Positions 7,393 to 64,000 of a stretch of 64,000 nucleotides of DNA are shown piece after piece (positions within the stretch are counted from its first letter, which is position 1; each line of letters opens with the position of its first letter). Where the stretch lies: the NCBI GenBank assembly GCA_038363925.1, contig JAQQWL010000001.1, positions 2,842,024 through 2,906,023 of the forward strand, given 5' to 3'. The position numbers were made by a program, and so were the translations under genes. This DNA comes from Apiospora phragmitis. Taxonomy: Eukaryota; Ascomycota; Sordariomycetes; Amphisphaeriales; Apiosporaceae. The notes beneath the pieces are model-generated. The model was not told the DNA's origin, did no database searches, and saw only the letters and a program-made list of their open reading frames with translations.

Positions 7393-8381
7393 TTAGTGCG
7401 ACAAGTCGACAGGACATCCTTGGTCAACAGAGTCCTTCTTTGTCTTCTCCACCACCGTCTTCCGGGTCAACTCCATCAGCCTGTCGGCGAGCGCATCGTC
7501 CTGCGCCAGGCTGTTCCCGGTCTCAGGCACCGCCGGCGGGCAGATGTACTGGCCGCCCTTCTCCGTCTTGGTGGCTGCGAACATGCTCGAGACGCAGCCC
7601 TCGAACTGGGACTTCTTGAAGGGTTCCATGATCGTCGACACGCCATAGCCAAGAATGGGGAAGGGCTCGTGGATGTGCTCCTTGCTCTGCCGGGTCGACA
7701 CGAGGCCGGGTGCACCGAATTCATGAGCACTTTCGGGTGGCCGGCCTCAGTCACCTTGCGGGTGAAGTAGCGGGCGTACAGGATGGCCGCCAGCTTGGAC
7801 CGCCCATACTGCGGGTTCGGCCCGAGGTCCTGGTTCAGCTCCTCGAGGGACTCGAATTTGGTGTCGCTGGGCGCTCCTTGGTGGGCGTTGCTAGCCAGGT
7901 TGACGATGCGCACCGTGTCGCCCTTCTCGGCGGTCGACTTCAAGAGGGGAAGCAGGTGCGAGGTGAGTACGACGTGGCCCATGTGGTTCACGGCCATGTG
8001 CCTATCCACGCCGTAATCAGTGAGTTCATAAGTCATGATGCCCCGGCCGGCATTGTTAATAAGTATGTCGATCCGGTCGGTATCTTTCTTGATCTCCTCG
8101 GCCACTTCCTTAACGTGTTTCCAGTCAGCCAGATCGCACGTGTACCACTTCGTCTTGCTGACAGCTTCCTCGCCCAAGTCCTTGGCGATGGCTCCCTTGG
8201 CGCCCTTGATGACCTCGGGGTCAACTGACAAAACGTAGACCTTGGAGATGTTGTGGTCGAGCAGTGTGTGGATGGAACCATATCCAATGCCTTCGCTGCC
8301 ACCTGTGACGACGGCGACCTTGCCAGTCAGGTCCGGGACATCAGATAGCTGGAACTGATGTGTGGAGAGGTCCTGCGCCAT
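7393..8381 (-). CDS. Short-chain dehydrogenase/reductase (SDR)
   Basis: This is a classical-type NAD(P)-dependent SDR, probably an oxidoreductase of the retinol-dehydrogenase/WWOX-like group; the substrate cannot be read from sequence. The N-terminal Rossmann fold has TGGSEGIGYG as the cofactor loop (about residues 25-34). It is followed by the NNAG motif (about residue 108) and the active-site YGRSK (YxxxK, about residue 195) with an upstream catalytic Ser region (NLAS). The start is the ATG at 8379-8381. One base appears to be missing near 7710, just after NSVHP. The C-terminal part, beginning STRQSKEHIHEP and ending at the TAA at 7393-7395, therefore lies in another frame. The full length of about 330 residues is typical. 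It is transcribed away from the zinc transporter gene, with a shared upstream region. Confidence 0.88.
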
Positions 8382-39637: not shown

Positions 39638-41458
39638 GTTGGCGGATTGGACTGAGAGAAAGAAAGACAGGGTCGCGTGAATAGGGTGAAACGAATGTAG
39701 GTGTCCTTAGGGTGTAAAGAATACGATGCTATTTCCAGAGCTCTTCAAGAAGGAACGAGGTATATTAGAAAGAGAGACGGTTGATGAAACGGAAAAAAGG
39801 GATGCGCAGGGCCAGCGCGAAGCCGAGGCCATTATGGGGCTTTATCAAATACATCGTCTGTCTGTCCACTTGCAGAGCAGATCTGGGATGAAGCCGGGCC
39901 AAGATGGAGCAGGGCTAAGAGGTTAGAGCTCAGCCCCCTGGCCGTCATGCAAGGTACCAGAAATCCAATGCCGGCAGCACACGGCTCTTTTCTTTCCACC
40001 GGCCACCGCTAACCAACCAAGGAACATGCTTAATTTGGGATGAACGCTGCGCCATTTCAACAGGACTGAAGCTATACACCCGGAAAAGGCCAAAGCGGCC
40101 ATCGGTATTCCAGTAGTTTTCAACACATCCAGTCGACTGACTGATCGGGTGCTACCATCACTGGTCGACGGCGGTGACAGGCAGTTGGGCCTGAACCCGC
40201 AGCCTGCCTGGCGCTTAGACCAAGTACCGAAGCACCGCCCCCAGATTAGCAAAGGAGCGTCAGGTCCTTCTGGATTCCCGCTTTTGGACAAGGATCAAAC
40301 ACCGTCAAGCGTTTCATCCTAACTGGGAGCCCAGCCTTTGTTTGGCGGAACGGTCACCACGCAGACTCCAGAGGAGAGGGAGTCTACCTTCCCCCACCAC
40401 GCATGCAACACCAGGAATGACAGTCTTCACAGGAACGGGAGCTCGGCAAGGCTCGAGAATGTATTCGCTTAAGTCAAACCCATCCAACTTTCTCCCTTCT
40501 TGCTATGCCCTGCTGAAGTCGCTCATCGAATATTTGACTGGCCTGTCAGTGATTTCCAAATTCGCAGTTGGCGATCGGCAAGCAACAAGAACCTTTCATC
40601 TGATGGACAAATCCAGCATCTGTTAAAGCGAAACGCTAGCGGTGATGTGAGCCAGGATTAAAGATGGGCCATCGAGATTAATCTTCAAGCACCATTTCTC
40701 CCTCTCGGCCAACCATCCGCCTGCAACTGCGGCATCAGAAGAAGACCGTTCAGTGTGTAGATGTTATTGATATTATCGCCTGCGATCGCGGTTTCTTTGA
40801 ATACAACCTTGTCATGGACATTCCATCGCAGGACAGGCACTGCTTACCCCGCGTTGCATGGTGCGCCGCATGTCCCTCCATTGTTACCCTCGTCGGTGTT
40901 CGCCCACGTCTGACCGACATGATGCCCGAGGGCCGAACCTATTGTTCGGTGGCGGTGACTGACGCCTTTGAACGGCGGCTTGATTAATGCAGATCACTTT
41001 TTTTTATGCGCGCCTCTGTTTTTCTGTACTGTATCTGAGCATGACCCTTGATACTGGACTTGTGCCATCTCGCCTGGGCCTTCATCTCTTCGTGGTCCGC
41101 AGATTTGAGAGTGTCCACTGGCCGACGCTGTTGGGAAGCCGGACTATGCGGTCAACACCACATCTCCGGGTTTTGCCAGCAACAGAGGCCGGTGGAAATG
41201 ATTTGGCAGCGTTGTTGCTGCGTGTGACGTAATTGACGTATAGCTCGGGTTGTCTCATCGCCCGAGGTCGACGATTCCAGGCTAGTCAGCCATCAGGAGC
41301 TGAACTGCCACGCCAATCAGCCATGGAGATGTCATTGTGCTAAATAGCCCTCATGATGATGGTGTACTTCGTCTTCTCCATGCCTCGTTATCTATATATT
41401 TGCGTGAATCCCATGAGTGTCCGGCTATGTTAGGTCAGGGCTGTTTCTGAGAACCATC
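39638..41458. other. Divergent intergenic region of 1.8 kb, no gene seen
   Basis: This is the shared upstream region of the surface protein (leftward) and the FAD monooxygenase (rightward). A TATA-like TATATAT lies near 41393-41400, about 60 bases before the monooxygenase ATG. No coding sequence is recognised. Confidence 0.45.
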
Positions 41459-42782
41459 ATGTCGCAACCCAAGGTTCTCGTCGTCGGCGCCTCCATCGCA
41501 GGCCCCATGACCGCTTACTGGCTTGCCAAAGCCGGGGCTCGAGTCACCGTCATCGAAAGGTTCCCACAATTGCGGACCAACGGCCAGAACGTCGACATAC
41601 GCACCGTCGGCGTCACGGTGATGCGGAGGATCCCCGGCATGGAGGAAGCGGTGCGGGCCAAGGTCCTTCCCATGAAGGGGATCGGCTTTGTCGACACCAA
41701 AGGTCGGCGCTACGGCACCATTACTGCCACGGGCAACCCTGATCAGCAGTCCCTGGTCTCCGAATACGAGATACTACGGGGTGACCTCTCCAAAATTTTG
41801 GTTGACTTGACCAAGAACAACAAAGACATCAGCTATGTCTTTGGTGAGCAAGTTGCCTCGATGAGATGGCAGCAGCCGCAGCTCCCTCAAAGCTCCCAGG
41901 ACGGCTTGGACAAGGAACAGATCACGGTTGAGTTCATGAACGGCCACCCCACCACTACTTTCGATCTTGTCGTGGCCTGCGACGGTGCCACGTCTCGAAC
42001 CCGGGCGATGGGCCTGGGCTGTGGCGCGCGAGACTATGTCCAGCCCGCCAACGCCTGGGCTGCCTACTACTCCACACCGCCGGGACACGATCTTCTCAAG
42101 GGAGCCAGTGGTGGCATCGGTCATGGATACAATGCCGTCGGCGGACGCATGGTGGGCATCGACGCCCCTGACCCAGCCACTGGGTCCAACCGCCTGACCT
42201 TCTTGAAATTCCACCCGCGCAGCGGCGACCAAGACCGACAGGCTACGCAGACGTTTCGGGACGCCGCCCAGAAAGGAGACGAAGCCCTCCGAGGTTTTGT
42301 CGCGCAACAGTTGACAGGCGCGGGCTGGATATGCGACGACGCTGCCGGCCTGATCGCGGACGCGGATGACTTCTACGCCTCCGAGTTCGTGCAGATGAAA
42401 CTGCCGGAGCTTCTACAAGGGCCGATTCGTCCTCGTCGGCGATGCAGGCTATGCTCCGGGCCCCACCGGTACGGGGACGAGCCTGGCCATGGCGGGGGCG
42501 TACGTGCTGGCCGGCGAGATCCATCGACACCGTGGCGACTTGGGGGCCGGACTCCGGGGGTATGATGACCGGATGCGGCCTATCGTAACAAAACTGCAGA
42601 AGATCCCGCCACTCGTCCACAACTTCATCGCCCCGCAGACGGTTTGGGGCATCTGGCTGCGGAACAACATTTTTGCTTTTATTTGCTGGACGGGGTTCAT
42701 TGACTTTGCCCAGAAGTATCTCAGTGCCGCCTTTGCCGAGACCGACAAGACCGGACTGCCCGACTATTTTGAGGATATATAG
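41459..42782 (+). CDS. FAD-dependent aromatic-type monooxygenase
   Basis: This is a single-component flavoprotein hydroxylase of the PHBH/salicylate-hydroxylase fold, common in secondary metabolism; the substrate is unknown. The start MSQPKVLVVGAS (41459) places the dinucleotide-binding loop at the very N-terminus (VVGASIAGPMTAYWLAKAG), as the family requires. An in-frame upstream ATG at 41417 would add 14 unlikely residues. The DG motif is VVACDGATSRTR (about residue 175). The GD motif, VLVGDAGYAPGPTGTG, lies near 42435-42480 and contacts the FAD ribityl chain. A one-base shift near 42418 separates the two. The C-terminal helical part ends LPDYFEDI. Its stop is 170 bases from the end of the hydrolase gene, which runs toward it. 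Confidence 0.88.
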
Positions 42783-45615: not shown

Positions 45616-48600
45616 TCAACTCTCAGACTGCGCATCCATGCACTTCATATATATCGCAACAAACTGCTCGTTCATCGCCGGCGCCGCACAGTCACTGCCA
45701 CCGAGAACATGCTCGCCGACAGGCAAGCCCTTGAACATGCCAGCCGCCGTATCGTCGTTGTAGCTGTCCAAGACCGCCGCGATCCGGGCCAGCCGACCTT
45801 TCGGGAACCTCGCCGCATGGTCCAACGCCCGTCGCTTCCAATCCCCGAAACCTACCAACTCTCGCCTGCCACCACGGGTGCCATTGAACAATGCGAAGAA
45901 GTCGTTGCAGCTTGGTGCACCCGCGTTCAGAAAGTCATAGTCCCGACCCCTTCGAGCCTCCTCGAGCGTCACCACGTCTACCATGGTCTTGCTCAGGTAG
46001 TCGACCGGTAGCACGGCCGAAAGGTTCGCCTCCAACCGAGGGAAAGCACCCAGCTCCAGGCTGCCACTAATCAGGTTGTGCAGGAAATCCCCGCCGTCGC
46101 GTCGAAAGTGGCCCGACATGGTCGATGCAGTAACATACGGTAGCCGATACACCGTCGCTTTGGCACCCCGCCAGCGAGCCGCCGCCACGAGGCGCTCCGC
46201 CACGAACTTGGATGTCCCATAGCCGTACTCATGCTCTCCTCGCGCAGGCCCAGTCCCATGTGTAGAGGCAGCGTCGAGATGGTGGACACAAGATGCACCG
46301 ACTTGGCACGCCCCCGCGACGCTAGACGCAGAACCTCATGGGCGCTGACGATATTGGGGCCAACATACTCCTTCAACGGCCGCATCCAGTCTACCAAGGC
46401 GCCCGAGTGACAGATGGCACCAACCCGATCTGTCAGCTCCTCGAACGATTCCTCGCTCAAGCCAAACAAGCGTTGACCCAGATCACCGACCACAGGATGC
46501 ATCATCGACGCAAAACTCGATTTCCAGAGCCCATATCCTTCCAGCGTACTCACCACGCGCCGCCTTGCCACGTCCATACCATTGGCCCGTACAAGGCAAT
46601 ATGTCGTGATCCCGCGCCGCAACAGGTCACCCAGGATGAAGGCACCGACGAAGCCTGTGGCCCCGGTCACAAACACGGCATCTGGGCATCTGCCAAGTGT
46701 CTCGGCATCTCGAGTCACATTGTCAAACGTGAAGGTGCTGTCCAGACAACCTTTCTCAATAGCCTCAACGTCCAATTCGAGAATGTCCGACACGCTTGTG
46801 GCAGTCGTGTCGCTGCACGCCAAAATTTCAGATGATGGTGACGTGTTCATGTCCTGCAGCTGAGATAGCAGGAATCGTGCGAGTGCTGTCAGGTTCGGAT
46901 AGAGGAAGGCGATGTTGACAGAAAGGGTAAGTCCCGTCACCCCTGCTAGATGATTGCGTATTTGCACGGCCGTCAGCGAGTCAATGCCAATGTCTCTGAG
47001 AGGAATGTTGGCATCTCAGGTCTAGGGGTCGCGTAAAACCCAATGCCTTGGCCACTACCTCCCGGACCTTGTCAAGCATCATGTCCTTGCTTTGCCCCGG
47101 CCCAGCTTCCCCCAATGACTTCCGCAAATCCATGGCTCGGGGGGCTTGGGGACCCCGTCGCGTATCTGGCAGAAGTAGTCGAAGCAAGGCGGGGACGCCT
47201 CCCTCTTCATCATAGAAGTCTTGAAGCCGCCTCAAGTCAAGAGCGGCTGCTACTGTTAGGGCACGCCCCTCGCTGACCGCGTCTTGAAGTGATTGCAACC
47301 CATTCCCGGGAGCTAGCGGATCAAGACCGATGAGGGCCAGGTGGGAACGTGTGGTGTTGCTGAGCCGGGAAGCCATGCCGTCGCCTGCCCAGGTGCCATA
47401 TGCCACGGACGAGGCTGGCAAGTGCTGTGCGCGGCGCAGGTGGGCCAAGGCGTCGAGAAATGTATTAGCTGCGGCGTAGTTGGCGACGCCCGACATGCCC
47501 ATGACCCCGGAGATAGAAGAGAACATGACGAACATGTCTAGATCCAAATCACGAGTATACTGGTGCAGAAGCCATGCACCGTGCACTTTTGGCAGAAATG
47601 TTGTGGCACATTGTGCCGGCGTCAACGTAGACAGCACACCCGAGTCGGAGACGCCAGCTGCGTGGATGACACCTCCCAGCGGCCGTTCCTTTCCAAAGAG
47701 CGCCATCATCTTCTTCACACTGCCAGCCTCTGCTACATCCCCAGCAATCACAGTGGCCTTGGTGCCTATTCTGGAAAGCTCATCAACAAAGGTTTGGGCG
47801 CCTGGTGTCTCGCTTCCCTTGCGCGAGCACAGTACCAGATCGCGGATCGAATGTTCTCTGGCCAGCCATTTCGCCACGCGGGCTCCAAGGCCACCAAGAC
47901 CACCCGTTATCAGTACTGCCCCATCATGTCGTAGCAGTGGCTTCGCTGAATTCTTTGGGCTATGGCCAATACGCTGCATCCTAGGGACCAGCGTCTTTCC
48001 GGGACTCACGACACATTCAGGCTCTTCCTGGAGTGCCAGTGTGTACGTCAAAGATGCTGCCGTATTGGCGCCTAGCTCTTCTCCCAAATCAATCAACCGC
48101 AATCGTAGTTCCGGATGCTCACTTCTGGCTGTGCGCATCAGACCCCAGAGCGGTGCCGCCCCGAGCTGGAGGACCTGGTCCCTTGACTCGATTCCAGTGC
48201 CTACTGCACCATGCGTGATCCACACCAGAGAGGGAGTGAACTGCATCTCGGCCGCCTCCTGCAGCTGCTTCAATGCCTTTGCGATGAGATCTTGCGCTTG
48301 AGGTAGGAGGGCGGTATCCGAGTCCCACAGGCAAACCAACCCGTCCAGCATTGTGGCATCCTTGATGTGTTCGATTATGGCCATGCCCAAGCCGGCACAC
48401 GACAGCATAGATTCTACCCGCCTTGTCCAATTTGTGTGTCCAGCCGGCAGCAAGAGCCCCCACGTTCCATGGAGGTCATGGAGACGGTGATTGGTTTCCA
48501 TCTCCACTGCATGCCAAACTATCTCGAACTGATGGCCCTCTGGCAGAGGCCGCCGATCAAGGACAGTTTTCTCCTGTGGGTGAGACTTTTCTACAACACG

Positions 48601-51600
48601 AGCGTGGTAATTCCGTTGAAAAGCGTACGTCGGCAACTCCACCCTCCTGCAGCCGAATGGCTTGAAAAATGCCGACCAATTGATGGATAGGTGCCTGGTA
48701 TGCAAACCGGCGAGGCTGCGGCCAAGAACTGACATGCCGTCTTGACTCCTAATGAGCGAAGGCAGCCAAGTGTGCGATCCGGAATATTGGCTGTTCGCAA
48801 GAGTAGCCACGCCCAAGCCACATAGCACAGGCTGGGGTCCCAGCTCCAGGAAGACCTCGGCACCCTGATCGGACAGTTCCTGGATCCCATCACGGAAGCG
48901 AACTGGCTCGCGCGCCTGTCGAACCCAATAATCGGCTATTTCTAGCTCGCCAGGCTCGGCTAACTTCCCGTATACGCTGCTGACAATGCGCATCCGAGGT
49001 CTCTTGAATTGTATTGTTTCGGCCACATCTCGGAACTCGTCAAGCATGCCATCCATGTGGCGGGAGTGAAACGCATGGCCAGTTGCTAGACTTGTGGTCT
49101 TGCGGCCCAGCCTCGAAAAGTATCCTGCCATCTTCTCGACCGAGGCAGCGTCGCCCGAAACGACTGTCTGTCTGGGCGCATTGTACAGTCCGATGTCCAC
49201 GCTTTGAGCAACTTCTAACTCGCCAATGGCGGCTGTAACCTCGGCCGCGGTAGCTTCCAGCGACATCATCATCGTGTCGCCGGACTGAGCCTGCATTAAT
49301 CGGCCGCGTGCCGCCACCAGTCGACAGCCATCGGTCAAGTTCATGACTCCTCCCACATGGGCTGCCACCAGCTCGCCCAGGCTGTGACCGAGAACAAGTT
49401 CTGGTGTCACCCCCCAGCTCTGCCACAGTCGCCAGAGTGCTACCCCCACGGCGAACAAAGCGGGCTGACCAAAGTCGGTGCGCTTCAGCATCTCCGCCGC
49501 TTGACTAGCAGGTTCTGCCCACATGACATCGAGCAGTGGCCGCTCCAGTTGGGTAAACTTGGCTACGATCTCATCGATGGCCTCACGGAAGATAGGGTGC
49601 GACTCATACAGATCCTTGCCCATACCTGGCCACTGGCTTCCTTGGCCTGTGAAGAGCATAGCCAGCTTGGGTGTTTTGGGAGTCTCCGTGGCATACGACG
49701 CGAGAGAGCTTGGCTGCATGATCGACTTCAACTGGTCTGTGAGCTCGAGTCTGCCTCTGGTCAACAACACCTCTCGCAATCGAAATTGGGTGCGAGTAGT
49801 CGCCAGAGAAAAAGCCACATCCTTGAGGCTCGTGTCATCGTCCAACCCGTCGATATGTCGATAGAGCTTCTCAGCCTGCATCCTCAGCGCTGCTTCGGTG
49901 TGTCCTGTGATGATGAAGGGGAGACTGTCTAGCCTTGGAGCCACTCCGCTTGGCACCTCGGAAACCGGATCTTTGCTCGGCGATTCTTCCACGATCACGT
50001 GAGCATTCGTGCCGCCAATACCAAAAGCGTTGACACCAGCCCGGCGTAATCGATTACCTCGCAAAGGCCACAGTCGTTTGTTCAGCACTGGAGCCATCTT
50101 GGCACGATCCCAGTCTACCGCCGGGGTAGGCTTGGTGACATGTAAGGTTGGCGGCAGTGTGCTATTCTGCATGGACAGTATGACCTTGAGCAATCCCACT
50201 AGCCCAGCAGCCGCTTGCGTGTGGCTGATGTTGGACTTCGCAGAGCCCACCAACAACGGCTCCGAGCTGATGCGGGTTGGACCAAACACCTCGGCAAGCG
50301 CGGTGGCCTCGATGGGATCGCCCAGCTTGGTGCCGGTGCCATGCGCTTCGATATAGTCGATATCGCCCGGTTGCAGCCCGGCCGCACGGAGAGCCGTGTG
50401 GACCAGTCGTTGCTGAGCCGAGCCGCTCGGTGTCGTCAAAGTCGCACTGCGCCCGTCATGATTGACAGCCGTTCCGCGTATCACCGCGTGGACGACATCA
50501 CCATCGCGCTGCGCATCCGACAACCGCTTCAGGACCACAGCGACGCAGCCCTCGGACCACCCTGTACCTTGCGTGTCGGCGGAGAAGGATCGACAGCGCC
50601 CGTCGGGTGAGGTACCATGCAGCCGGCTGAACTCTACATGCAGCCCGGGATTCAACATCAGGCTTACACCTCCCGACACAGCCATGTCACATTCGCCTAG
50701 GCGCAGCGCGTTGCAAGCCAGGTGAGTCGTCACCAGCGACGACGAACATGCGGTGTCGATGGTCATGGCCGGGCCTTCGAGGCCCAGGTGGAAGGAGATG
50801 CGACCGGACATGGTGCCTGCGGACGAGCCGGTGACCGTGTATCCGTCGAGACACGCCAGGTCTTTGACGGCGTTCGGGTTGAGAGCTTGATGGGACAAGA
50901 TGTTGCTGGTGCCAATGAAGACGCCCGTCTGGCTACCCCCTCAGCTGCTCCATCGTGTACCCCGCGCGCTCTAACCCTTCCCAACAAGTCTCCAGCATCA
51001 TGTACTGTGCAGGGTCGAGCGAGCGCGCCTCTCGTGGTGAGATGCCAAAGAACGAGATGTCGAAAGCGTCGATGGAGCGAATGAAACCACCCCGAAGTGA
51101 CGCTTCCGAGGTTGAGTTCTCATGATCAGGCCAGCGGCCCTCCGGCACGTCGGTAATGGCATCGCCGCCGCGTTCCAGCAGATCCCAAAAGCCCTGGGGC
51201 GTCGTAATCTCACCGGGAAGCCGTAATGCCATTGAGACAATGGCGATATCCTCGACAGTTTCGGGAGGGAGTCGGGTCGGATATACGGGGATAGGGCTAT
51301 TTGTTTCAAGCGAACTGCGCAACCATGCCGCCAACGTCTTAATGGTGTAGTGTTCGAACAGCTTGGGAGCCAAAACGCGCCGGCCCAGTAGCGTTTCAAG
51401 CTCGTTTTGGACACGAATGACTCGTACGGAATCACCCCCAACCTCAAAGAAGTTGTCATCAAGCCCGATTCTGTCATGGCCAAGCACTGAAGTCCACACG
51501 GCCAGTATCTGGCCCTCCAACTCCGTAGCGGGCATCACCTCGATGACTGGCTGTGCAGGTGCCACTACCCTGGGAGGGCCATGCGGTCAATCTTGCCATT

Positions 51601-53130
51601 GGCTGTTACCGGCAGAGCCTCCATATTGACGAAGAACGCTGGGACCATGTAGGCTGGCAGTCTCTCTGTCAGCCATTTTCTCAACACGCGGCCAGTTCCT
51701 GTTCTTGCGTCCTGGCTTTTGGTATCGCCGAGTGCTCCCATGGAGGTCACGTAATACGCCACGAGTCGATCTTCGCGACACAGTACTACTGCCGCAGCGA
51801 CATCGTTGTGCGTAGTCAGAGCGGCCTCCACGTCGCCCAGCTCAATCCTGTGGCCCCGGACCTTGACCTGCTGGTCGATCCTGCCCATCACAGACAACTT
51901 CCCCGGATCCACCCATCGAGCAAGATCCCCGGTCCGGTACATCAAGCCGCCATGGAAAGGGTCGCGAAGAAAGCTGGATCGACTCAATTCCTTGTTGTTG
52001 CGATAACCACGGGCCACTACAGACCCTCCAATATACAGCTCGCCGGGATCCCCAGTGGCCACTGGCGACAGGTTGGCGTCCAGTACATAGAGGTGGCCGT
52101 TGGCGATGGGACCACCGATGAGGATCGCCTCCCCGCGGGATACCTTCCAAATGCTTGCATACACGGTCGCCTCGGTCGGGCCATACATGTTCCACAACAC
52201 GCCACTGCACCCCAGCAAGTCATCTGCTAGCGACCTAGACAGCGCTTCCCCGCCGCACAAGACCTTTTCCAGTCGCGGTTGCCCACGCCACCCTGAAGCC
52301 AACATCATCTGCCACATGGCTGGTGTACCCTGCATCATGGTGATTTTATGCTGCTTCATGAGCCCGACCAAGGCCGAGGGATCTTTGACTTCGTGCTTCT
52401 GGGCCAAGACAACTGCGCCGCCGCACACAAGTGGCAAGTACATCTCGAGGACTGCCATGTCGAACGAAACCGTTGTGATGGCGAGGAGACGATCCCTCTC
52501 GCTGCACCCGGGTTGCTGCTGCATCGATAAGAGCAGATTGGAGACACTGCCGTGGCTAATCTCGACGCCCTTGGGCCGCCCCGTAGACCCCGAGGTGTAC
52601 ATGACGTAGGCAAGATCCTGGCTCGAGATTGGCACATCCAGGTTCCCACTATCCAGTTCGGACAGTAACATGGTATTGGCCATCAGGCACACACTACTCC
52701 AAGTCGAGAAGCATCCAGGTGCCGTGGTATCCCCTGCGACGAGCAATTTTGGAGCGGCATCTTCCATCATCTGATTTATCCGCTCTACGGGGAGCGAAGG
52801 GTCAATAGGCACGTACGCGGCCCCCGTCTTCATGACAGCCAGTAATACCGCGACGAGGTCGACCGAGCGGTCCAGCGCCACGCCAACGATATCGCCATGC
52901 TCCACGCCACGGCGTGCGAGCAATCTAGCGAACTGGTTGGCTCGCGCGTTGAGCTCCCCAAAAGCGAGGGTAGCGTCGCCACATATCAGAGCCGCATTGC
53001 CACTGTAGGCATCAGCGGCTCGTTCAAAAAGTTGGTGAAAGCACGGCCTCGGCGTTGCCGCATGGAGCGCACTACTAAATTCGGCCGCTTTCTCATGCTG
53101 AAGGCAATCTTGAGCAATCAAATCCGTCAT
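45616..53130 (-). CDS. swnK: Hybrid NRPS-PKS, SwnK-like (A-T-KS-AT-KR-ACP-reductase)
   Basis: One multidomain enzyme of about 2,500 residues. The adenylation domain comes first with no condensation domain before it (A3 TSGSTGRPKG, A5 NMYGPTEA, A7 YRTGDL). The carrier follows near 51430 (DDNFFEVGGDS). The ketosynthase has its active Cys in DTACSSS (near 50740) and EAHGTGT. The acyltransferase has GHSLGE (near 49380) and the ketoreductase GGLGGLG (near 47890). The second carrier has GIDSL (near 46980), and the terminal thioester reductase TGATGFVG (near 46670). No DH, ER or MT domain is present. In the SWN pathway this architecture loads pipecolate, extends it once with malonyl-CoA and releases it reductively toward an indolizidine. 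The frame breaks by one base near 51570, 50935, 47015 and 46230. All catalytic motifs survive. Assignment rests on domain order plus neighbours; a related non-swainsonine product remains possible. Confidence 0.88.
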
Positions 53131-53804
53131 GTTGGGCGAGTTATGAATGCAACTCCAGTTGTTACTCCTCGTTGCGCGTACGAAAGCTGGACTTGCTGGT
53201 CTTACACGAGGTCTATCACAGGCTGCTACTCGATATTATGATATGCCACGGTGTGCAATATGTACTATGCGAGGCACACTAGTCTTCGACCTATCGAGTT
53301 TTTGTCTTCTCCTTTCTGTGACGAACAAGATCCTACAGCTCTACCGATCATCCATTCGCTTAGCATGGGTGGGCCTAACCATGCCGTGTAGTTTGGACTG
53401 GCTCAGAAACTAGGCAGCAGTTGCTGCGACATACTTTTCGACATTCAGGGGTTTATTGTGGCATGCTGTCAAGGGATATAGCAGACTAGGTTCGTGATCC
53501 TCTGAAGGATAACCTAATGCAGCCTACGTCTATATCATTCCCCGCATCTCCGCTTCGTTCTTGGAGTCGCCTAGTATACGCGGGTTCGGCGATGGGTTAC
53601 ATCTTTGTCAGCAACAGAAAAGGAAAGAGGGGCATTTTCAGGTAGCTACTGCCATCTGCAATAAGTATATCCCAACCCAACGTTTCGGTCGGATCCTCCT
53701 CATCACGACGCGTGCGTCTTCACCGCTTCATACTCCACCCACAAAATTTTTTCACTCTTCAATCCTAAGGCTTGCCCCCTTTCTAGTCTATCCGCATCAC
53801 CGTC
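53131..53804. promoter_or_regulatory. Divergent promoter between the hybrid synthetase and the NmrA reductase
   Basis: A 674-base head-to-head spacer lies between two pathway-type genes and probably drives both. I could not identify a specific activator site by eye. No cluster-specific transcription factor gene is present in the window. Confidence 0.6.
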
Positions 53805-54826
53805 ATGGTAGTGGTTGCAGTCGCCGGAGGCCTCGGCGACTTGGGGAGTTTGATTACCCATGCTCTGCTGGAAACGGGCAAGCATGAGGTCTACGTTCTG
53901 TCCAGAAAGGTTTGGCAAGCTAGTCCTGCCCTCCTATGTCATTGGCTAACTCTTTTTAGACAGCGGAAAATGATCCTGGCCGCATATCACCCTTGACGGG
54001 CGAGCACTACTTTCCCGTCATTCAAACCGACTACTCATCCGAGGATGGGCTGACAGAGAAGCTCCACGAGCAAAATGTGCAAGTCGTCATCTGCGCCTTC
54101 ATCATGGACTCGGAGCCGGTGTCGGACGCCCAGATACGGTTGATCCGCGCAGCCGAGAGGTGCTCTACTGTCCGGCGCTTCGTACCCTCCGAGTTCAACG
54201 TCGAGTACGATGTCGGCGACGACGTGCTCCCCTACTCCCAGAAGCGGTTTCACATGTTGGGTCGGCAGGAGCTGGAGAAGACGCAGACGCTCGAGTACGC
54301 CTACCTGTACCCGGGCATGTTCATGGACTACTTTGGTCTGCCACGAGTACAGAGTGTGCTTCGCCCGCTGTGCTTCTTTATCGACCCGGCCCATGCTCTG
54401 GCCGTCCTGCCCGATGACGGCGAAGCCAAGATGAGCATGTCATTGACCACGGACTGTGCGCGCTACCTGGCGCTGGCGCTCGACCTGCCGACGTGGCCGC
54501 GCGTCTTGTCTACCGTCACCAGCACCGTCACCCTGAATGAGCTAGTCCGGCTCGTGGAAAAGAGCCTCGGACGCCCGCTCCAGGTTCGCTATCAGCCGGT
54601 CGGGGACCTTTTGCAACACGCAGCGGTCGATCTGCCCACCAACATGGAGATTGCCAAGAGCTGGCCCGAGTGGGGAGGCCAGGATACACTGCGTGCATTG
54701 ATTGCCGATCTCGAGGCGAGTGTCGCACTGGGTGCGTACAATTTGACGCAACTGACTGGGCATCTGGATCTCGTGAAGGAATTCGAGGGAAAAGCCCGGC
54801 ACCAAGACGCATCGAGGACGTGCTAG
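53805..54826 (+). CDS. NmrA-like NAD(P)-binding reductase (SwnN/SwnR type)
   Basis: The 323-residue protein belongs to the NmrA/isoflavone-reductase-like atypical SDRs. The N-terminal cofactor loop is AGGLGDLGSLI (residues 7-17). A 50-bp intron (53910-53959) with a canonical branch-like GCTAAC follows VYVLSRK. Other family features are VVICAFIMDS, RRFVPSEFNVEYD and YAYLYPGMFMDYFG. SWN clusters carry two such proteins, SwnN and SwnR, proposed to reduce imine or iminium intermediates. I cannot tell which this one is, so no symbol is given. It is divergent from the hybrid synthetase, 674 bases away, and tandem with the dioxygenase. The frame is intact. Confidence 0.85.
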
Positions 54827-55279
54827 AGGAGGCTTGGAGCCAATAAGTGTCGAGAAATGGGCCATGTAACTATTGTGGGGTTTCCGGGGTCTAAGTGCTT
54901 ACGGCAACATATCGGATGCATTCTTGGTATGCTATGGAACCTGCTATACGGAATCTGCATGCATGAATCACAAAATTGGCTGCGTCTATGCGAGGTACTT
55001 TAACCATCGTGGACGACTAGCTGGGGTAGATAGCTGACAAATACATCAAATATTACAGGCTCCTAGACCTCCCGGGAATAGCTTGCACCATCCTCGTCTC
55101 GGCAAGAACTCACTGGTCCCCGATAGCTGATACTAGGTTCGTGAAATCTCCGTACCAGCGCCTAGGTATTTACTGATTGCTGCTTCTAGTGGTTTCTATC
55201 TCGAATAATCCCGTTTGGTTGACAAAATCTATTTCCGGCAGTCATACATTTTCCCGTAGGCTTTCCCCAAACCGCAAGC
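54827..55279. other. Intergenic between the NmrA reductase and the dioxygenase
   Basis: About 450 bases without coding character, AT-richer than the flanking genes. It should include the reductase 3' UTR and the dioxygenase promoter. No RIP-like composition is apparent here. Confidence 0.45.
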
Positions 55280-56137
55280 ATGGCAAGCGTAGCACCCAAA
55301 TTACAGCAGGTTCAAGCCTCGGCGGGCCGTGACGCCATTCTGCGTGCTGTTCGCGAGGACGGAGCTGTCGTCATCAAATGTCTATTCACCCAAGACCAGG
55401 TCCGCCGGCTCAACGAGGAAGTCCAGCCTTCCGTCGACAAGCTCCATGTGGGATCCAGGCACACGGAAGAGTGGGTGCAAGACTTCCATGGCGACAACAC
55501 CAAGCGCCTGAACAACGTCGTCTCCTTGAGTCCTACCTTTTGCCACGAGATTCTGGAGAGTGACTTGATTCACCAGTGCTGCGAGGCCATCTACCTCGAA
55601 GATGCCGGCGGCTACTGGATGAACTCAGCCCAGGTCATTGACATCGGGCCCGGCAGCCGCGCCCAGCCGTTGCACCGGGATCAGTGGCAATTCCCCATTT
55701 TCACGCGAGCGGGGCCCGACGCCCCCGAGGCTAGCATCAACTTTGTCGTGGCGCTGACCGAGTTCACGGACGCCAACGGGGCCACCCGCGTCATTCCGGG
55801 CAGCCACCGCTGGAAAGACCTCAACGACAACGGGACCCCCGAAGACACCACCCCGGCCGAGATGGACGCCGGAGATGCCTGCTTCATCACCGGCAAGGTG
55901 GTCCACGGAGGCGGCGCCAATATAACGGAAAACGCGACGCGACGGGCTATCACACTGGTCTTTCAGTGTTCCTACCTCACCCCGGAGGAGGCGTATGCCT
56001 TCAATGTGGCCCCGGAGGTTGCGCGTACGCTCAGTCCGAGGGGTCAGCGCATGATCGGATTTCGGTCCCAGTTTCTAAAGAATAGTCCCGGGGTCTGGAA
56101 GCGGGACTACGGTGAACCGGACGAAGTGTACTGTTAG
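55280..56137 (+). CDS. PhyH-family Fe(II)/2-oxoglutarate dioxygenase (SwnH type)
   Basis: The 285-residue, single-exon protein belongs to the phytanoyl-CoA-hydroxylase-like oxygenases of fungal secondary metabolism. The iron ligands are His132 and Asp134 (LHRDQW) and distal His209 (GKVVHGGG). An Arg in ATRRAIT (about 221-222) should bind the 2-oxoglutarate carboxylate. VIPGSHRWKD is a further family signature. SWN clusters contain two such enzymes, SwnH1 and SwnH2, which oxidise the indolizidine ring. Only one is present here and I cannot say which, so no symbol is given. It is the last intact gene before the telomere, about 7.8 kb from the chromosome end, with AT-rich transposon sequence starting within 300 bases of its stop. 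Confidence 0.88.
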   Translation: MASVAPKLQQVQASAGRDAILRAVREDGAVVIKCLFTQDQVRRLNEEVQPSVDKLHVGSRHTEEWVQDFHGDNTKRLNNVVSLSPTFCHEILESDLIHQCCEAIYLEDAGGYWMNSAQVIDIGPGSRAQPLHRDQWQFPIFTRAGPDAPEASINFVVALTEFTDANGATRVIPGSHRWKDLNDNGTPEDTTPAEMDAGDACFITGKVVHGGGANITENATRRAITLVFQCSYLTPEEAYAFNVAPEVARTLSPRGQRMIGFRSQFLKNSPGVWKRDYGEPDEVYC

Positions 56138-56410
56138 TCAGGCAGCCAAGCTTCCTTTGTTATAACGTTGTGTATATAGATAGGGATTATAGCTCGAAAG
56201 ATAAAGTAATTAAGGACGCGGCATTAACTCTTATATATCCCTAGGTATTATTCCGCCGGTTATTCGAGTAGAATAACTTCGCGATTCGATATAACGCACG
56301 GGCTTGCCCCCCTCGGTTCGTAATAAGATAATACGTAATAAGGTAACGCGGTTAATTAACGCGTTATACCGCGCGCTTTTTATTTAAAGTATATCGGGGT
56401 TTATTTAACG
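56138..56410. other. Partly RIP-affected spacer or unidentified repeat relic
   Basis: AT-rich sequence with TpA excess and leftover CpG-rich islands (for example around 56330-56380) begins almost at the dioxygenase stop. It could be a relic of another transposon, or RIP that spread from the neighbouring element. Nothing identifiable remains. Confidence 0.45.
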
Positions 56411-57351
56411 TATCTTATAAGCGAATATCTTATATAAGCGAATATTTTATTCTTTTACACCCTTTTTAATAAAATATAAATTAATTTTACTATAACGTAT
56501 TTAATATATTAAAATTAATCGGAATCCTTATCTTTAGATACTTCTATATTATTCTAATAAGTGCGCGTATTATACCCGGGCTCTCTATAGATTCTATAGC
56601 GTTATAAGCGTGTTTTAAACGTCCTCGTACGGCTACTCCTCCGACGCGATTCGTTTTATAACTATTTATTAATATTTTTTTAAAACTACAGCTCTTTTTT
56701 AACTTATATACGAAATAATCTTTTATTTTATAGCCGGTTTTTTTTATACGGCGGCGCCGGCTCAACATCTTATTTATTTTTTAAAGTGTCGCGTTCTTAT
56801 TTTTTAAAAAAGTAACTCGGTATATAATGTACGTTATAGCTTTTACGATCTAATTAAAACTAATTAAAATAAACGTCGAAAAGTTATTTTAATACCGTAC
56901 GATACGGTTTCGAACGTATTCGGTTTAAGATTAAGCCTTAATCAAGTTATTTAAAGTCTTTAATTCTTAAAGAATAAGTAGGTCGAAAAACGTTCCCAGA
57001 GGTATTAAAGTATATAGCTTTACATCTAACTATGAAATAATATATTCCGGATCGTACGAGACGAGTCTTATTTTTCGAAAGCCTCCTTATATATTCGAAA
57101 CGGTGAAAATCGCTTAGAACGCTTTTAAAAACGCTAGTAGAAAGTATTTAAGATATGGGTAATATACGCCCGTATAAAATATTTAATTTCTTTCTTGTAC
57201 ACCCTTTTTAATATATAAAAACAGCCTATATTAAGAGGTTAGAGCTTATATAACGAATAAGAAAGTATATAAAGTATAATAATCGAGTTTTTTTTATAAT
57301 AAAGCTCGAAAGCTATCGAGTAATAGCTTTCGTAGCCGTTTAAGACTAAGA
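56411..57351 (-). mobile_element. Pogo/Fot1-like DNA transposon, copy 2, inverted and interrupted
   Basis: This is the same element as at 18694-20548, in opposite orientation. The TA and TIR at 56411 read TATCTTATAAGCGAATATC, which is the copy-1 TIR after CpA-to-TpA changes. The next roughly 900 bases follow the transposase 3' half of copy 1 base for base, apart from RIP-type and scattered differences. Copy 2 includes the C-terminal fragment GRLKHAYNAIES on the minus strand (near 56610-56650). Similarity stops abruptly at 57351, where a retrotransposon LTR begins, so the transposase 5' half and the other TIR are missing from the window. Confidence 0.85.
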
Positions 57352-58032
57352 GTGTTACGACTTGACCCAAACAGGCGGCCAAGATCCACCGACCGGCACA
57401 GAGCCAGGATAGCCCGAGGCGCTTACGAAATCCTACACAAAGAGCCAGTCTACGATAACGCCCTACTAACGATAATAGCCCCATTATACCGCTACAAAAT
57501 ATTAATAAATAATAATACGATAATAGTATACCACGACTAGCCGATTAAAGATAAACTATAATAAATAAACGGGAACGGATAAATAGGAATAGACGGATAA
57601 GATAAAGCAAATAACAAAGGATAACCTAAAGTCACGTATAGATAAAATAAAGGGAGCTACCGGATCACGACGCTCCTAGTAATCCAGGAGCGACGGGATC
57701 GCGACGCTCCTAACGACCCAACTCGGATTAATAAAAAAAGGATTAAATATATAACGATAAACGTTCCCTATATATTTTATATAAATACTCTTTATTTTAA
57801 TAATTAATTTAAGTATTAATCTTAACTTATTAATAAGGTAAACAGTTTTAACGAAACTATTATAAATATTTCTAAACCTACGTACCTTAATTATTTTCGT
57901 TTTTACTAGCTATTACTTATTATATTAATAAAAGCGATTTCTATTATATATTTAGATATTCTTTCGTATTACTAATATAAACCCTAGTACGTTTTATTGG
58001 GTTTCTTTTAAAACCTAAATAACGTTCGTTAC
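57352..58032 (+). repeat. Probable 5' LTR of the chromovirus (right border uncertain)
   Basis: The left border is sharp, at the junction with the interrupted DNA transposon. The first 120 bases or so are GC-rich and appear unmutated; the rest is RIP-altered. Around 57655-57710 a short direct repeat (GGATCACGACGCTCCT and GGATCGCGACGCTCCT) is separated by an inverted AGGAGCG. The right border near CGTTACA at about 58026-58032 is a guess, made because it could pair with the TGTTACG start. A primer-binding site is no longer readable. Confidence 0.45.
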
Positions 58033-61000
58033 ATTTTAATCACTTTTATTCTTATAAATTATTACTTAAACCTTTAAATAATAATACTATAAGAATTATA
58101 TTTATACCTAGCCTTAATAACACCGTCCAATAAGGAAAAACTCCTATCGCCACCCTTAATACCTCCTAACGGGACCTTGCTATAGACGTCGATAATAATA
58201 ATAATAATAACAAGCCTATATAATAAATACTAGCTAAGCGAATTAAAAAACTCGAGTAAAAGAGCGCTAACTATTAACATTATTACGTTAAGCTTAAAAA
58301 GGAGCGTAACGAGCTCTTAACTAAGGGTACCTTAAAATAGATACCTTATAATATTAATAAATTACGCGAGGAGGTGCGTCTCTTCCGCATAACTACTAAT
58401 ATTATCCAGACCCTTATTACACCAAAAAAAGTATAAAGATCAGCACGCTAACCCTTTTTAATAAAATAAGCGGAAACCTCCGAGGTTTCTTTATTTAAGT
58501 TAAGGCTTATTAACGGTTTTATAAAAAGATGTTCCAAAACGTTACCCAGCGAGTTATCTACGCCGCCTCGTTCTTTAAAAATAAAGCACTCGCTTAGTTC
58601 AAACCTTACTTAAACGAACTCGTAAAAAACAATTAATAGGTTAAATTATACCGCGCGGAGGCATAGCGTATCTTCGAGAGTTACGACGGCTTTAAATAAG
58701 CTTTTAAGTCACTCTTCTAAAACCCCGATAAAAAACGACAGGCGGAAAAAGAACTTAAAACCTTTAAATAAAAAGGATTAACCGCTTTTTACACAGCCGA
58801 GTTCCGGCGTATTATAACTTGATTAAATTATACCGAAGCTATAAAAATTATAATATATTATTAAAAACTAAAGAACAATATTAAGAACAAACTCAGCCGG
58901 CTTAACGCCCTCAATAACTTCCTCTTATATATAGAACTTATTATTAAAATCGATACTTATATATACGAGTAACGCTATAAAAAATAGGGCGGACCTTAAT
59001 AATAAATTAATTAAACCTAAGCTAACACGGGGCGACTATATTAACATAATTATATACCGCCTAGAAATATTATAACGTATAGCTATTATAATAAACCTAT
59101 AAACCTCGATATTACTAAATATAATAAGCAGGATAGAAAACTACGTAATACTTATTATAACTATTAAAGACTAGAACATTACGCTCGAAAATATCGAGCA
59201 CTAAAAAAAAAACTTCTAACAAGTCTTAAAAAAATAATATATTAACGCTATTATAATAAAGAACACCTTTATAATAATTATTAAAAATAATAACGCTATT
59301 ATTAAACACGGCAGCCTATTTTAAATAACCTATTATAATAATAAATACACTTCTTACTTAGCGGATAAAGAAGGTACCGAATAATTTTTTAAAGCCCCGA
59401 AAAGTAAGGAGGATTATAGCCGAAACGTCGCGATAATATAAAAAGAACAACCTTTCTTTTATAACGAAAATAATAGTTTAATAAATAATATTATAAACTA
59501 GTTAGAATAATTAATAAATTATAAATATTTAATAAATATATTAATAAACGAGCTAATAAGCGAGATCGCTAAATTTAAAAACCTTAGGACCAACGGGTAA
59601 TTAGCTATTCTTAGTATCCTTTATCTCGATTCGAAATACCTACGCTAAGTATTTATTACGGCCGGTTTTAATTAAAAAATCCACGGTAATTACGTAATAA
59701 AGAACGATTTATAAATTTCTTTTACTTATAAAAAACACTTCACGCTTTTATAAATCTCGTATATATACAACGCTTATATAAAACACCTTATAAAAAAACT
59801 TAAATATAAATAGTTTCTTCGAAAGATTAATAAACGACCTATTACGTAACCACACCCGGATTATATTATCAAGAAAATTCGAACATCGATCCTAAACGGG
59901 CGACGCGCGTACTTACTAATATAGGAGGACTTACGGTAACTACGGCAATACTATTTAAAAGGACAAGATTAGAAAGAGTACTTCGAAAACTAATACCTCG
60001 AATACGCCTAAGAAAAATCGCGAGCTTATAAACGTTTAAAAAAAAGCGCCTAACGCTTTTAAAACGTATAAATATATACCTAATAAGAGAACCCCTTTAA
60101 TATATTAAAGAACCTATAAAACGCTTATAAACTACCGCGAACCTAATAAACCTTTAAATTATTAAAAAAACCCGAATTTTAAATATTAAGGATAATATTT
60201 TATATAAAAAAGAGTATAAAAACACCTCCGTTAACGTATTAAAAAATACCTTATAAAGAATAAAGGGAATAATAATAACGATATAAAGATCGATCGCAAA
60301 ATATTATTAATAACTTATAAACGCAGCGTTCGGGAAATAAACGCCGCTTATTATAAAAGAACGATAATAAGCGGACTAAAATAGATCCCTATACTAAATA
60401 ACGGATAATTAAGCTATCCACGAATATATTATACTAATACTAAACGTAAAAAAAATCTATATTAAAGCGCTACTTAATAACGGAGCGTAAAGAAACTATA
60501 TTTCATTATAAATCATTAATTACCTTAAACTCGAATAATAAGAGAAAAACGCCCCATACCGATTCAGGACCGTCGATAAAAGACTTATAACCTATAACGA
60601 TAAAGAAGTACGGAAAGAAATCGCGAACTTTTCGATCAATATCGGAGGACGCTATAAATGAATCACGTGTAACATTACAGACGTCGCAGGATACGATATA
60701 ATTTTAAAGATACCCTAGCTACGGGTAAACAATCCTAAAATTAATTAAAAAATAGGTTAACTTTAATAAAATATATTAAAAAAAGGTTTAATTAATAAGT
60801 AATAATTTAAAAAACGACCCCTTAGTAAACTTAAAGTCTTTAAAATATATATTATTATTAAAAAGCCTAAGCCGAACGTCACAACGACTATACCAAAAAA
60901 GTACCGGTAATTCGAAATACTTTTTAATAAAAAACTAGAAATAAACTTACCGCCTCATATATAATAAAACTATAGAATACTTTTTAAAAATAAGAAAAAA

Positions 61001-63945
61001 CCCTTATTTATACCTATATATAAACTTAACCAGGAGCACGAACAAGCCTTAAAAGAGTATATTATAGAAAATCTCGAGAAAAGAGTTATCCGACCATTCA
61101 CATCACTAGCAGGCTTCCCCATCCTCTTCGTTCTAAAAAAGAATAAAAACGGGAAACCTAAATAGCGTATATATATCGATTATTAAAAACTTAACGAAAT
61201 TATTATTAAAAACCGGTACCCCTTATTTTTAATCGGCGATTTATGAATAGACTATTATAAGCTAAAATCTTTATAATACTCGACTTTTTTAATATATATA
61301 ACTTAATTCGAATTAAAAAAGAAAAAAAGTAGAAAACCGCGTTCCGAACTAAATACGGCTATTTTGAATACTAAGCTATACCGTTTAGCTTAATTAATAT
61401 ACTAGCTAACTTTTAATTTATAATTAACTATATTTTACGAAAATACCTTAATAAGTTCGTTATAATATATCTCGATAATATCCTTATCTACTCCGAGAAT
61501 AACGAGCAGTACCGAAAACATATAAAACTAATATTCTAAAAGCTATAGGACGCTAACTTACTAGTTAACCTAAAAAAGAGCGAATTCCACTAACGATCCG
61601 TCACCTTCATAAGATACGTAATATCCCCGGGCGAAATCTGAATAAAACCTTCGAAAATCTCAGCAATTAAAAAGTGGCCCACGCCCACAAGCGCTACAAA
61701 AGTCAGATCCTTCTTAAAACTAGCCAATTACTACCGGATTTTCGTCCCCGGATTTAACAAGATAGCGACACCCTTAATAAACCTAACAAAAAAGGACGAA
61801 CTATTCTAATAAATAAAAAAAAAAAATAAAGCCTTCCACGATATTAAGGAATAAATCCTTAACGAACTAATACTTCGTATAATAAACCCGTCTAAACCCT
61901 TTAAAATCGAAACCGACGTATTAAACTATGCGATCAGAGGACAGCTTAATTAACGAAATAATAACGGAAAGTCGCACCCCGTCGCATTCTTTTCGAAAAA
62001 GCTTAATAAACTAGAGCTTAATTATTAAATTTATAATAAAGAATTAATAACTATTATTAAAGCTTATAAAGAATAAAGACATTATTTTAATAGAATAATA
62101 AAGCTAGTTAAAATCTATACCGATTATAAAAACCTTATAACGTTCACTACTATTAAAGAGCTAAATAAACGATAAATATAATAATCTAAATTCTTTTTAA
62201 AGTTTAACCTTATCATTATCTACTAGAAAAGTAATAAGAACGGTCGCGCCGACGCGTTAAGCCGATAACCGGACTATTAAGAGGAGGTTCTGTCCGAAAC
62301 GCGAATAATTCTGACTTATAATTAAAACGGTAACCTCGCGCCTTTAAAATAACTAAACGTTACAAACCACGTTTAATATAATAATAATTAAGTTATTAAA
62401 TTTTAATAACTTAACCAAAACCTCGACCCCGTAAATTACCCTAAGGATCACCTCGAAGACTGCGACGGTTTTACCTTTTATTAAAATAAGATCTATATCC
62501 CTAAATAATATCGCGAAAACTTTATCCAAGAAATCCACGAACACCCCGTATACGGACACTAAGGGATATTTAAAACCTAAAAAAAGATCACCAAATAATT
62601 CGACTATAAAAACCTCAAACCAATCGTAACCAAAGTAATCGGCAAATATAACCTCTATAATAAAACCAAAGCCGCCAGACATCGACTATATAGAGAATTA
62701 CAGTCGATCCCACCGCTAAATAAAATATAAAAAACTATTACACTTAACTTCGTTATCAAGCTTCCCCTATTAAAAGAACCCTTAACTAAGGTTAACTATA
62801 ACAGCATCCTAATAATTACGAATAAACTCACGAAATATACCTACTTCCTACCGTATAAAAAATTTAACAATACCAACGACCTAATATACACGTTTCTCCG
62901 GATAATCGTTAGCCAGCACGGGCTACTCGAAACAATTATCTCCGATAGAGATAAACTATTCACCGCTAAATTCTAAAAGTTACTTATAATATAACTTAAA
63001 GTTAAATATAAACTATCCACGGCTTACCACCCCTAAATAAATAAATAAACTAAGTAAATAAACTAAACCCTAAAATAATACCTACGCTGCTACATTAACT
63101 ATAAATAAAACAATTAGGTATAACTATTACTCATAACCTAATTCGTTTATAATAACGTAAAAAACGAAACCACGCGTATCTCACTATTCCGAGCAAACTA
63201 CGGGTACGACCTAGAAATTACCAGAAAACCCTTAAAAAAAGAACTAATACTAATCGCGACCATATAAATCAAAAAACTAAAAAAACTCTAAATTATATTA
63301 TAACAAGACCTTACCTTCCTCTAATAATAAATAAAAAGATACGCCGACTAAATAAAGTTAAAAGGACTAACCTTTAAAAAAGGAGAAAAAGTTTACCTCT
63401 TACGACGAAATATTAAAATAAAACGACTAAGCGATAAATTAAACTTTAAAAAGATAAAACTATTTAAAATCGTAAAAGTTATTTTAAAAACTAATTACTA
63501 ATTATTATTACCTAAAATAATATAGATACACCTTATATTTTATATTTTATTATTTAAACTAATAACTAAGAATACCTCGATCGATATATAACTAGAAGTT
63601 ATAATAAATTAATATGAGTACGAAATCAAAAAAATTATCGATAAAAGAAAAAATAAATAAGGGTACTAATACCTCGTCTAATAAAAAGGTTACCCACTTA
63701 AAAATAACATCTAAAAACCTAAAAAACACCTGGCGAACGCCGCGGAGGAGCTTCGGGAGTTCGAACAGCAGGATCAGCGGAAGGCACCAGGGGGCCCAGA
63801 CCCCCGAAATCAGCTAGACCCAGGGAAGCCCAGTCCACGTTAGGAGGAACGCCTATAAGCTAGAGGTCCCCCACCAAACAACTCTCGTGGCCCTTTAAAA
63901 TAGGGAAAATATCGTCCTCCTTATCCAATTCCTCCATACCACAAC
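57352..63945 (+). mobile_element. RIP-degraded Ty3/gypsy retrotransposon with chromodomain (chromovirus), 3'-truncated
   Basis: The element begins TGTTACGACTTGACCC, an LTR-type start. Reading through RIP stops in the + direction gives a complete chromovirus order. Gag has a decayed zinc knuckle near 59150-59200. Reverse transcriptase follows at about 61080-61560, with IIIKNRYPL and YLDNILIYSEN; the catalytic YLDD is now YLDN. RNase H is at about 61900-62060 (HPVAFFSKKL). The integrase zinc region is at about 62530-62690 (EIHEHPVYGH, NKTKAARH) and its core near 63010 (STAYHP). The integrase C-terminus near 63380 reads GEKVYLLRRNIK. A chromodomain is at about 63610-63760. TAA and TAG interrupt every module. 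The last codons (from about 63730) are GC-rich and unmutated. No 3' LTR is present before the telomere. Confidence 0.9.
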
Positions 63946-64000
63946 TAAGGGTTAGGGTTAGGGTTACTTAGGGTTAGGGTTAGGGTTACTTAGGGTTAGG
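63946..64000 (+). repeat. Telomeric repeat array (TTAGGG with TTAC-interrupted variants)
   Basis: The last 55 bases are TTAGGG repeats oriented toward the window end, so this is a right chromosome end, cut off by the window or the assembly. After a first partial unit, TTAC is inserted between TTAGGG units twice at regular spacing, giving TTACTTAGGG variants. The array directly abuts truncated retrotransposon sequence, with no subtelomeric helicase gene between. Confidence 0.95.

Follow-up and report, generated by a model that had tools for sequence, protein, structure and literature searches.

A three-gene cluster near a chromosome end of Apiospora phragmitis encodes a probable sister lineage of SwnK

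The terminal 64,000 bases of a 2,906,023-bp contig (C1) of Apiospora phragmitis (the whole stretch of DNA analyzed here, hereafter the window; the genome comprises 52.7 Mb in 19 contigs) carry a cluster of three genes at positions 45616–56137, which are the stop-codon ends of the outermost genes, with a telomere approximately 8 kb away. Judging from its relationships, this locus is very probably a sister lineage of SwnK, the synthetase of the swainsonine (SWN) cluster, and not an SWN cluster itself; most likely it is a further member of an already published, uncharacterized SwnK sister family. The original prediction, made from the DNA letters, had interpreted the genes as an SWN cluster. That claim fails, because trees of the KS-AT-KR region put the synthetase outside the SwnK clade (AU p 0.00147); a KS phylogeny with this outcome had been named beforehand as a refutation. 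As far as orthology can be judged from sequence, the swainsonine reading is rejected.

Organization of the locus

The features of the cluster and its surroundings are listed in Table 1. The synthetase (45616–53130, minus strand) and an NmrA-like reductase are arranged head to head, and the reductase is followed by a PhyH dioxygenase, both of these on the plus strand, confirming the gene order first proposed. Also confirmed by Pfam is the domain order of the hybrid synthetase, A-T-KS-AT-KR-T-R: matches with E-values from 1.2e-7 to 2.3e-86 run from AMP-binding and its C-terminal domain through PP-binding, ketoacyl-synt (N- and C-terminal), Acyl_transf_1, KR and PP-binding to NAD_binding_4. The pieces of the synthetase were searched separately and never joined. 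All catalytic motifs examined in piece 3 are present, namely the KS cysteine and two histidines, the AT serine and the KR NADPH motif. The likely start codon is at 53130, since residue 1 of two relatives (P0242, P0243) aligns there.

Table 1. Positions of the cluster genes, the synthetase pieces and the adjoining subtelomere within the window.
Feature	Position	Strand	Evidence
Synthetase piece 1: adenylation (A) domain	51565..53130	-	AMP-binding, E 2.3e-86
Synthetase piece 2: first carrier (T) and N-terminal KS	50933..51586	-	PP-binding, E 1.3e-11; ketoacyl-synt 2-113
Synthetase piece 3: remaining KS, AT (GHSLGE, HAFH), KR	46981..50940	-	Pfam
Synthetase piece 4: second carrier and start of thioester-reductase (R)	46071..47015	-	PP-binding, E 1.2e-7; NAD_binding_4, E 4.3e-38
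Synthetase piece 5: end of R domain	45616..46335	-	NAD_binding_4 170-258, E 4.2e-12
NmrA-like reductase, 323 aa, two exons	53805..54826	+	PF05368, E 8.1e-11; annotated protein P0121
PhyH-family Fe(II)/2-oxoglutarate dioxygenase, 285 aa	55280..56137	+	PF05721, E 2.3e-35
Subtelomere, AT-rich with RIP-type bias	56138..64000	.	GC, RIP index, contig end

The location at a chromosome end is borne out, because the window ends the contig and TTAGGG repeats occupy positions 63952–63985; within 63952–64000, the spacer TTACTTAGGG interrupts the telomere repeats. In 2-kb bins from 56001 to the telomere, GC content is 0.295–0.336 and the composite RIP index ranges from +1.03 to +1.20. At this bin size, the RIP-type AT-rich DNA starts at or shortly past the PhyH stop codon and continues to the telomere. 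Over 44–56 kb the index lies between -0.46 and -1.01, meaning that the cluster itself has no RIP signal. A second AT-rich island, at 18001–20000, has a GC content of 0.35 and a less pronounced RIP signal (index +0.46). The window also contains an NRPS-like gene fragment with an interrupted frame (34438–36666, minus strand; AMP-binding match at 35167–36666) and an FAD-dependent monooxygenase-like gene (41417–42782, plus strand; PF01494) that apparently continues in a second frame.

The NmrA-like gene is divergent from the synthetase, its exons spanning ~53805–53909 and then running from ~53960, and the exon used as query is 100% identical to the annotated A. phragmitis protein (P0121). The solved structures nearest to it are those of plant isoflavone-reductase-like enzymes, which says little about function. 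In P0121 and six other Apiospora records, the NmrA-like protein is annotated as a phosphoserine aminotransferase, which is inconsistent with its Pfam domains.

The dioxygenase has the putative iron ligands H-D-H, which are kept in 120, 120 and 119, respectively, of the best 120 of 2499 relatives. Its closest solved relatives are PrhA, DhiD, AusE and EasH (192–201 bits, PrhA highest at 201), compared with 75 bits for SwnH1 and 66 bits for SwnH2. For an ortholog of SwnH, the top scores should be those against SwnH1 and SwnH2; the enzyme is unlike either. PrhA, AusE and EasH belong to meroterpenoid or ergot-alkaloid pathways. PhyH-family matches number one within the 64-kb window and five further loci elsewhere in the genome; no counterpart of SwnH1 or SwnH2 was found at the locus, where the sole PhyH protein scores far from both. 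No SwnR was recognized in a Pfam scan of 11 of 59 ORFs from 40 kb on.

Phylogeny of the synthetase

A search with the KS-AT-KR piece scored 7980 candidates, 7858 of which passed, and the best 120 of these 7858 were used. By names and identity, 110 were classed as fungal and 10 as bacterial, many being unnamed metagenome proteins. Both trees were built from most of the KS plus the AT and KR, under LG+G4 with no mixture. The first had 118 rows (110 fungal and 7 bacterial sequences in addition to the window piece, after 3 of the 10 bacterial-looking matches were dropped) and, though flagged with a warning of meeting long branches, placed the window piece inside a 68-row clade with an SH-aLRT of 100. 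This clade includes Pestalotiopsis, Seiridium, Biscogniauxia, Madurella, Chaetomium and Stachybotrys; a separate 20-row SwnK clade, also at 100, includes Metarhizium, Xylaria hypoxylon, Rosellinia, Hypomontagnella and Chaetothyriaceae.

A more careful tree, for which 49 of those 118 rows were picked by hand, recovered the window piece in a 22-row clade at 100/100, with the SwnK clade apart and likewise at 100/100. Constraining SwnK to group with the window piece and the two relatives nearest to it, in the same 49 rows, cost 116 log-likelihood units (p-AU 0.00147), the clade to be set against SwnK in this test having been named only after the first tree was seen. Individual residues fall the same way: at 11 of 11 near-fixed differences (at least 95%) between the window clade and SwnK, the window piece carries the residue of its own clade, and at 0 of 11 that of SwnK. 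The AT motif reads GHSLGE in 66/66 members of the window clade vs. GHSVGE in 20/20 SwnK proteins, although GHSVGE, as well as the deletion in the A pocket described below, also occurs in other clades of the family and is unique to no one clade.

SwnK orthologs are reported as >70% identical, and the Slafractonia paralogs as 53–55% (Cook et al., 2017). The window synthetase does not reach the ortholog level: the KS-AT-KR piece shares 54–55% identity with all 20 proteins of the SwnK clade found in the best 120 of 7858 matches, and the A domain averages 54.7% identity to SwnK. When the X. hypoxylon SwnK was used to query the genome, the best match was the window gene (55%), and the others were PKS-like and at most 41% identical. 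A second SwnK closer than the window gene was thereby rejected, none being found among the 19 of 239 first-look candidates that were scored.

Adenylation pocket and proposed product

Pocket codes were read by motif alignment, with positions numbered as in GrsA; the A domain could be scored in all but 6 of 109 relatives. The code of the window synthetase is DMLQLGMVYK, and the commonest SwnK code, found in 15 of 18 SwnK proteins, is DMLQIGV-YK. Seven of ten positions are common to both, including D235, M236, L239, Q278 and Y331, while positions 299, 322 and 330 differ. At 330, all 17 scorable SwnK proteins have a one-residue deletion that is absent from the window pocket; the residue is kept in 63/63 scorable members of the window clade and in 10/10 of the clade of Slafractonia SwnK-like 1, and the deletion recurs in 4/4 scorable members of a Nectriaceae clade and in 4/7 of a mixed set. 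Comparison of the A-domain code with that of SwnK, as originally suggested, therefore gave a divided answer: the code is related (7/10), but the deletion typical of SwnK is lacking. Because position 330 differs from SwnK, the loaded amino acid may differ as well, so that the substrate may be near pipecolate but need not be identical to it.

To our knowledge, no product is known for any member of the window clade, nor was a paper naming one found in the literature searched, which also yielded no publication on the A. phragmitis genome. For this reason the amino acid, the order of steps and the product are what we infer; the domains, motifs, clade, partner genes and the difference of the dioxygenase from SwnH1/SwnH2 were observed directly. 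On the model of the pathway that Cook et al. proposed for swainsonine, the first T domain would receive a pipecolate-like cyclic amino acid from the A domain, KS-AT would add one malonyl unit, and the KR would reduce the beta-keto group. The R domain would then free an amino aldehyde, which would close to a cyclic iminium, to be turned by the NmrA reductase into a 1-hydroxyindolizidine-type base. Finally, this base would undergo one or more oxidations by the single PhyH dioxygenase. By this analogy, the likeliest product would be a hydroxylated N-heterocycle of the indolizidine type, derived from a pipecolate-like amino acid and one malonyl unit. The original prediction had the strain, or an ancestor, making swainsonine or a related indolizidine from pipecolate; on orthology, the swainsonine part is unsupported, and an indolizidine, or another small N-heterocycle built on a pipecolate-like amino acid, may still be made, given a code that is related (7/10) but without the pocket deletion. 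We judge the chances of indolizidine chemistry, argued by analogy, to be about equally divided.

The same assembly logic could also act on an amino acid that is not pipecolate-like, in which case proline would lead to a pyrrolizidine, and a primary-amine amino acid to a monocyclic hydroxypyrroline or pyrrolidine. Such a substrate would fit the absence of the SwnK deletion (17/17 scorable) from the window and all 63 scorable members of its clade, as well as the differences at 299 and 322, but it sits less well with the seven code positions that are as in SwnK, the five named above among them. Moreover, the same pocket length is found in SwnK-like 1 of Slafractonia, an indolizidine-making fungus, the link of this protein to slaframine being only proposed. 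We consider a different amino acid a tentative and rather unlikely explanation. The account that we prefer, a SwnK of a sister lineage that makes an indolizidine-type N-heterocycle with its partner genes, is in our view moderately probable as a whole.

Partner genes across relatives

To see how widely the three genes occur together, genes on contigs of identical size were counted as being on the same contig, using the best 120 of 209 NmrA matches and the best 120 of 2499 PhyH matches and excluding the record of the window gene itself (P0244). Among the matches listed, 42 of the 64 window-clade members whose contig is known are accompanied by NmrA and/or PhyH (19 both, 16 NmrA only, 7 PhyH only, 22 neither). 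The corresponding counts among the matches listed are 0/19 for SwnK, 0/9 for the Slafractonia-like clade, 2/5 for Nectriaceae and 2/8 for others, in lists that are biased against distant clades and in which an unlisted partner is not a proven absence. No NmrA relative among the best 120 of 209 is on a contig of the SwnK clade.

Protein distances co-vary over the 19 complete triads, with r = 0.68 (p = 0.0001) for synthetase and NmrA, r = 0.44 (p = 0.007) for synthetase and PhyH, and r = 0.32 (p = 0.016) for NmrA and PhyH, all p-values being uncorrected. In the three genomes with positional locus tags shown for all three genes, the order is synthetase-NmrA-PhyH: P. fici (07789–07791), Thyridium (010788–010786) and Anthostomella (082070–082090). 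The NmrA and PhyH genes of Madurella fahalii lie two tags from each other. Among the matches listed, the triad was not shown in other Apiospora species: NmrA stands without synthetase or PhyH in A. rasikravindrae, A. aurea, A. hydei and A. saccharicola, a single contig of A. kogelbergensis holds NmrA and PhyH with no synthetase listed, and the three records from A. arundinis are on contigs that differ in size. That the three genes form a self-sufficient alkaloid pathway, conserved together in many Sordariomycetes and leading to an undescribed N-heterocycle other than swainsonine, is in our view about as likely as not.

Frame changes in the synthetase

The reading frame of the synthetase changes four times, dividing it into five overlapping pieces, and none of these changes coincides with a gap of intron size. 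Aligned with three intact relatives of 2500–2504 residues, the pieces follow one another directly, and the sole leftover stretch between two of them is 32 nt, opposite 11 residues of the relative. Introns as the source of the frame changes are ruled out, because the pieces abut in this way. Introns are real elsewhere in the gene family, as a P. fici relative is reported to carry two.

Gapless frame changes are also found in other genes of this assembly. The ACC gene has one (profile positions 1–421 and 404–726 match overlapping DNA in different frames), and so do 3 of ~11 HSP70 loci as read from coordinates, at ~597.5 kb (two changes) and ~1354.4 kb of contig C13 and at ~2615.3 kb of contig C1; the remaining HSP70 loci have one frame or intron-sized gaps. 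Since the ACC gene and these three HSP70 loci show the same gapless breaks, assembly indels are likelier than decay to have produced the frame changes in the synthetase. A dead cluster, in which the four changes are genuine and the product is absent, would agree with the division of the synthetase into five pieces and with subtelomeric surroundings that have a RIP-type bias, yet we find it improbable: besides the indels that the assembly probably holds, in the 49-row tree the window piece evolves no faster (end branch 0.13) than the unbroken protein of A. arundinis (0.19), the KS, AT and KR motifs are intact, the cluster itself has no RIP signal, the PhyH frame is open and of a length typical of the family, and the NmrA exons match the annotated protein. 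Separately, an IML1/DEPDC5-type gene in the window (2049–7114, minus strand; PF12257, PF00610) occupies two overlapping frames, possibly a further sign of assembly indels.

Discussion

Automated annotation can name loci such as this one swainsonine, possibly causing fungi to be misflagged as makers of a livestock toxin. A cluster in Nigrospora musae was labeled swainsonine at 42% similarity in the paper describing it, and a paper on Neoarthrinium names a swainsonine cluster; both calls may rest on the synthetase family found in the window. The AT motif, the length of the A pocket and the type of dioxygenase are features that separate the window clade from SwnK. A 2022 paper counted 502 fungal NRPS-PKS hybrids, five of them with known function, and if a product is found, a large orphan group of such hybrids would gain a chemistry.

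Comparison with known systems

A genuine but reduced SWN cluster producing swainsonine is highly improbable: in its favor, the window has the domain order of SwnK (Kuhnert et al., 2021) and adjoining NmrA and PhyH genes, and reported SWN carriers do include genomes without swnN and swnH1 (Neyaz et al., 2022), but the trees set the synthetase apart from SwnK (AU p 0.00147), the dioxygenase is distant from SwnH1 and SwnH2, the 54–55% identity to the 20 listed SwnK-clade proteins is at the level reported for paralogs (53–55%; Cook et al., 2017), and the reduced carrier Rosellinia necatrix groups inside the SwnK clade, where the window does not. SwnH2 is reported in all of the carriers (Neyaz et al., 2022). 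Xylaria hypoxylon and a Hypomontagnella are described as carrying swn clusters, with swainsonine not detected in the cultures screened in that study (Kuhnert et al., 2021).

The window shares with the SWN cluster (SwnK, SwnH1, SwnH2, SwnN and SwnR; Cook et al., 2017) the order of synthetase domains, an NmrA-like reductase, a PhyH-family dioxygenase and a related A code. The SWN cluster differs in having a synthetase of another clade, a deletion in the A pocket, and the dioxygenases SwnH1 and SwnH2, as opposed to the single, unlike enzyme of the window. SwnK-like protein 1 of Slafractonia leguminicola is 56% identical to the window piece and has the same A-pocket length. However, it belongs to a clade other than that of the window, its code is DILQLGMVWK, and 0/9 members of its clade have an NmrA or PhyH partner among the matches listed. 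Slafractonia makes the indolizidines swainsonine and slaframine (Cook et al., 2017), and a paper on expression in this fungus considers a role in slaframine synthesis possible for its two SwnK paralogs.

The closest counterpart by description is the SwnK-like1 group of Cheng et al. (2021; PMC7864672), which has the domain order of SwnK, is separate from SwnK, and is flanked by genes that the authors call SwnN and SwnH, with no criterion for these names stated in their text; their account of the group names no product and gives no experimentally supported member, and the alignment is cited there as TreeBASE S27543. The same domain order is found in the window, likewise outside the SwnK clade, and the synthetase is flanked by NmrA and PhyH genes (53805–56137), a resemblance at the level of family only, the dioxygenase of the window being far from SwnH1 and SwnH2. 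Matched by description only, the window locus is most likely a member of this uncharacterized SwnK-like1 group.
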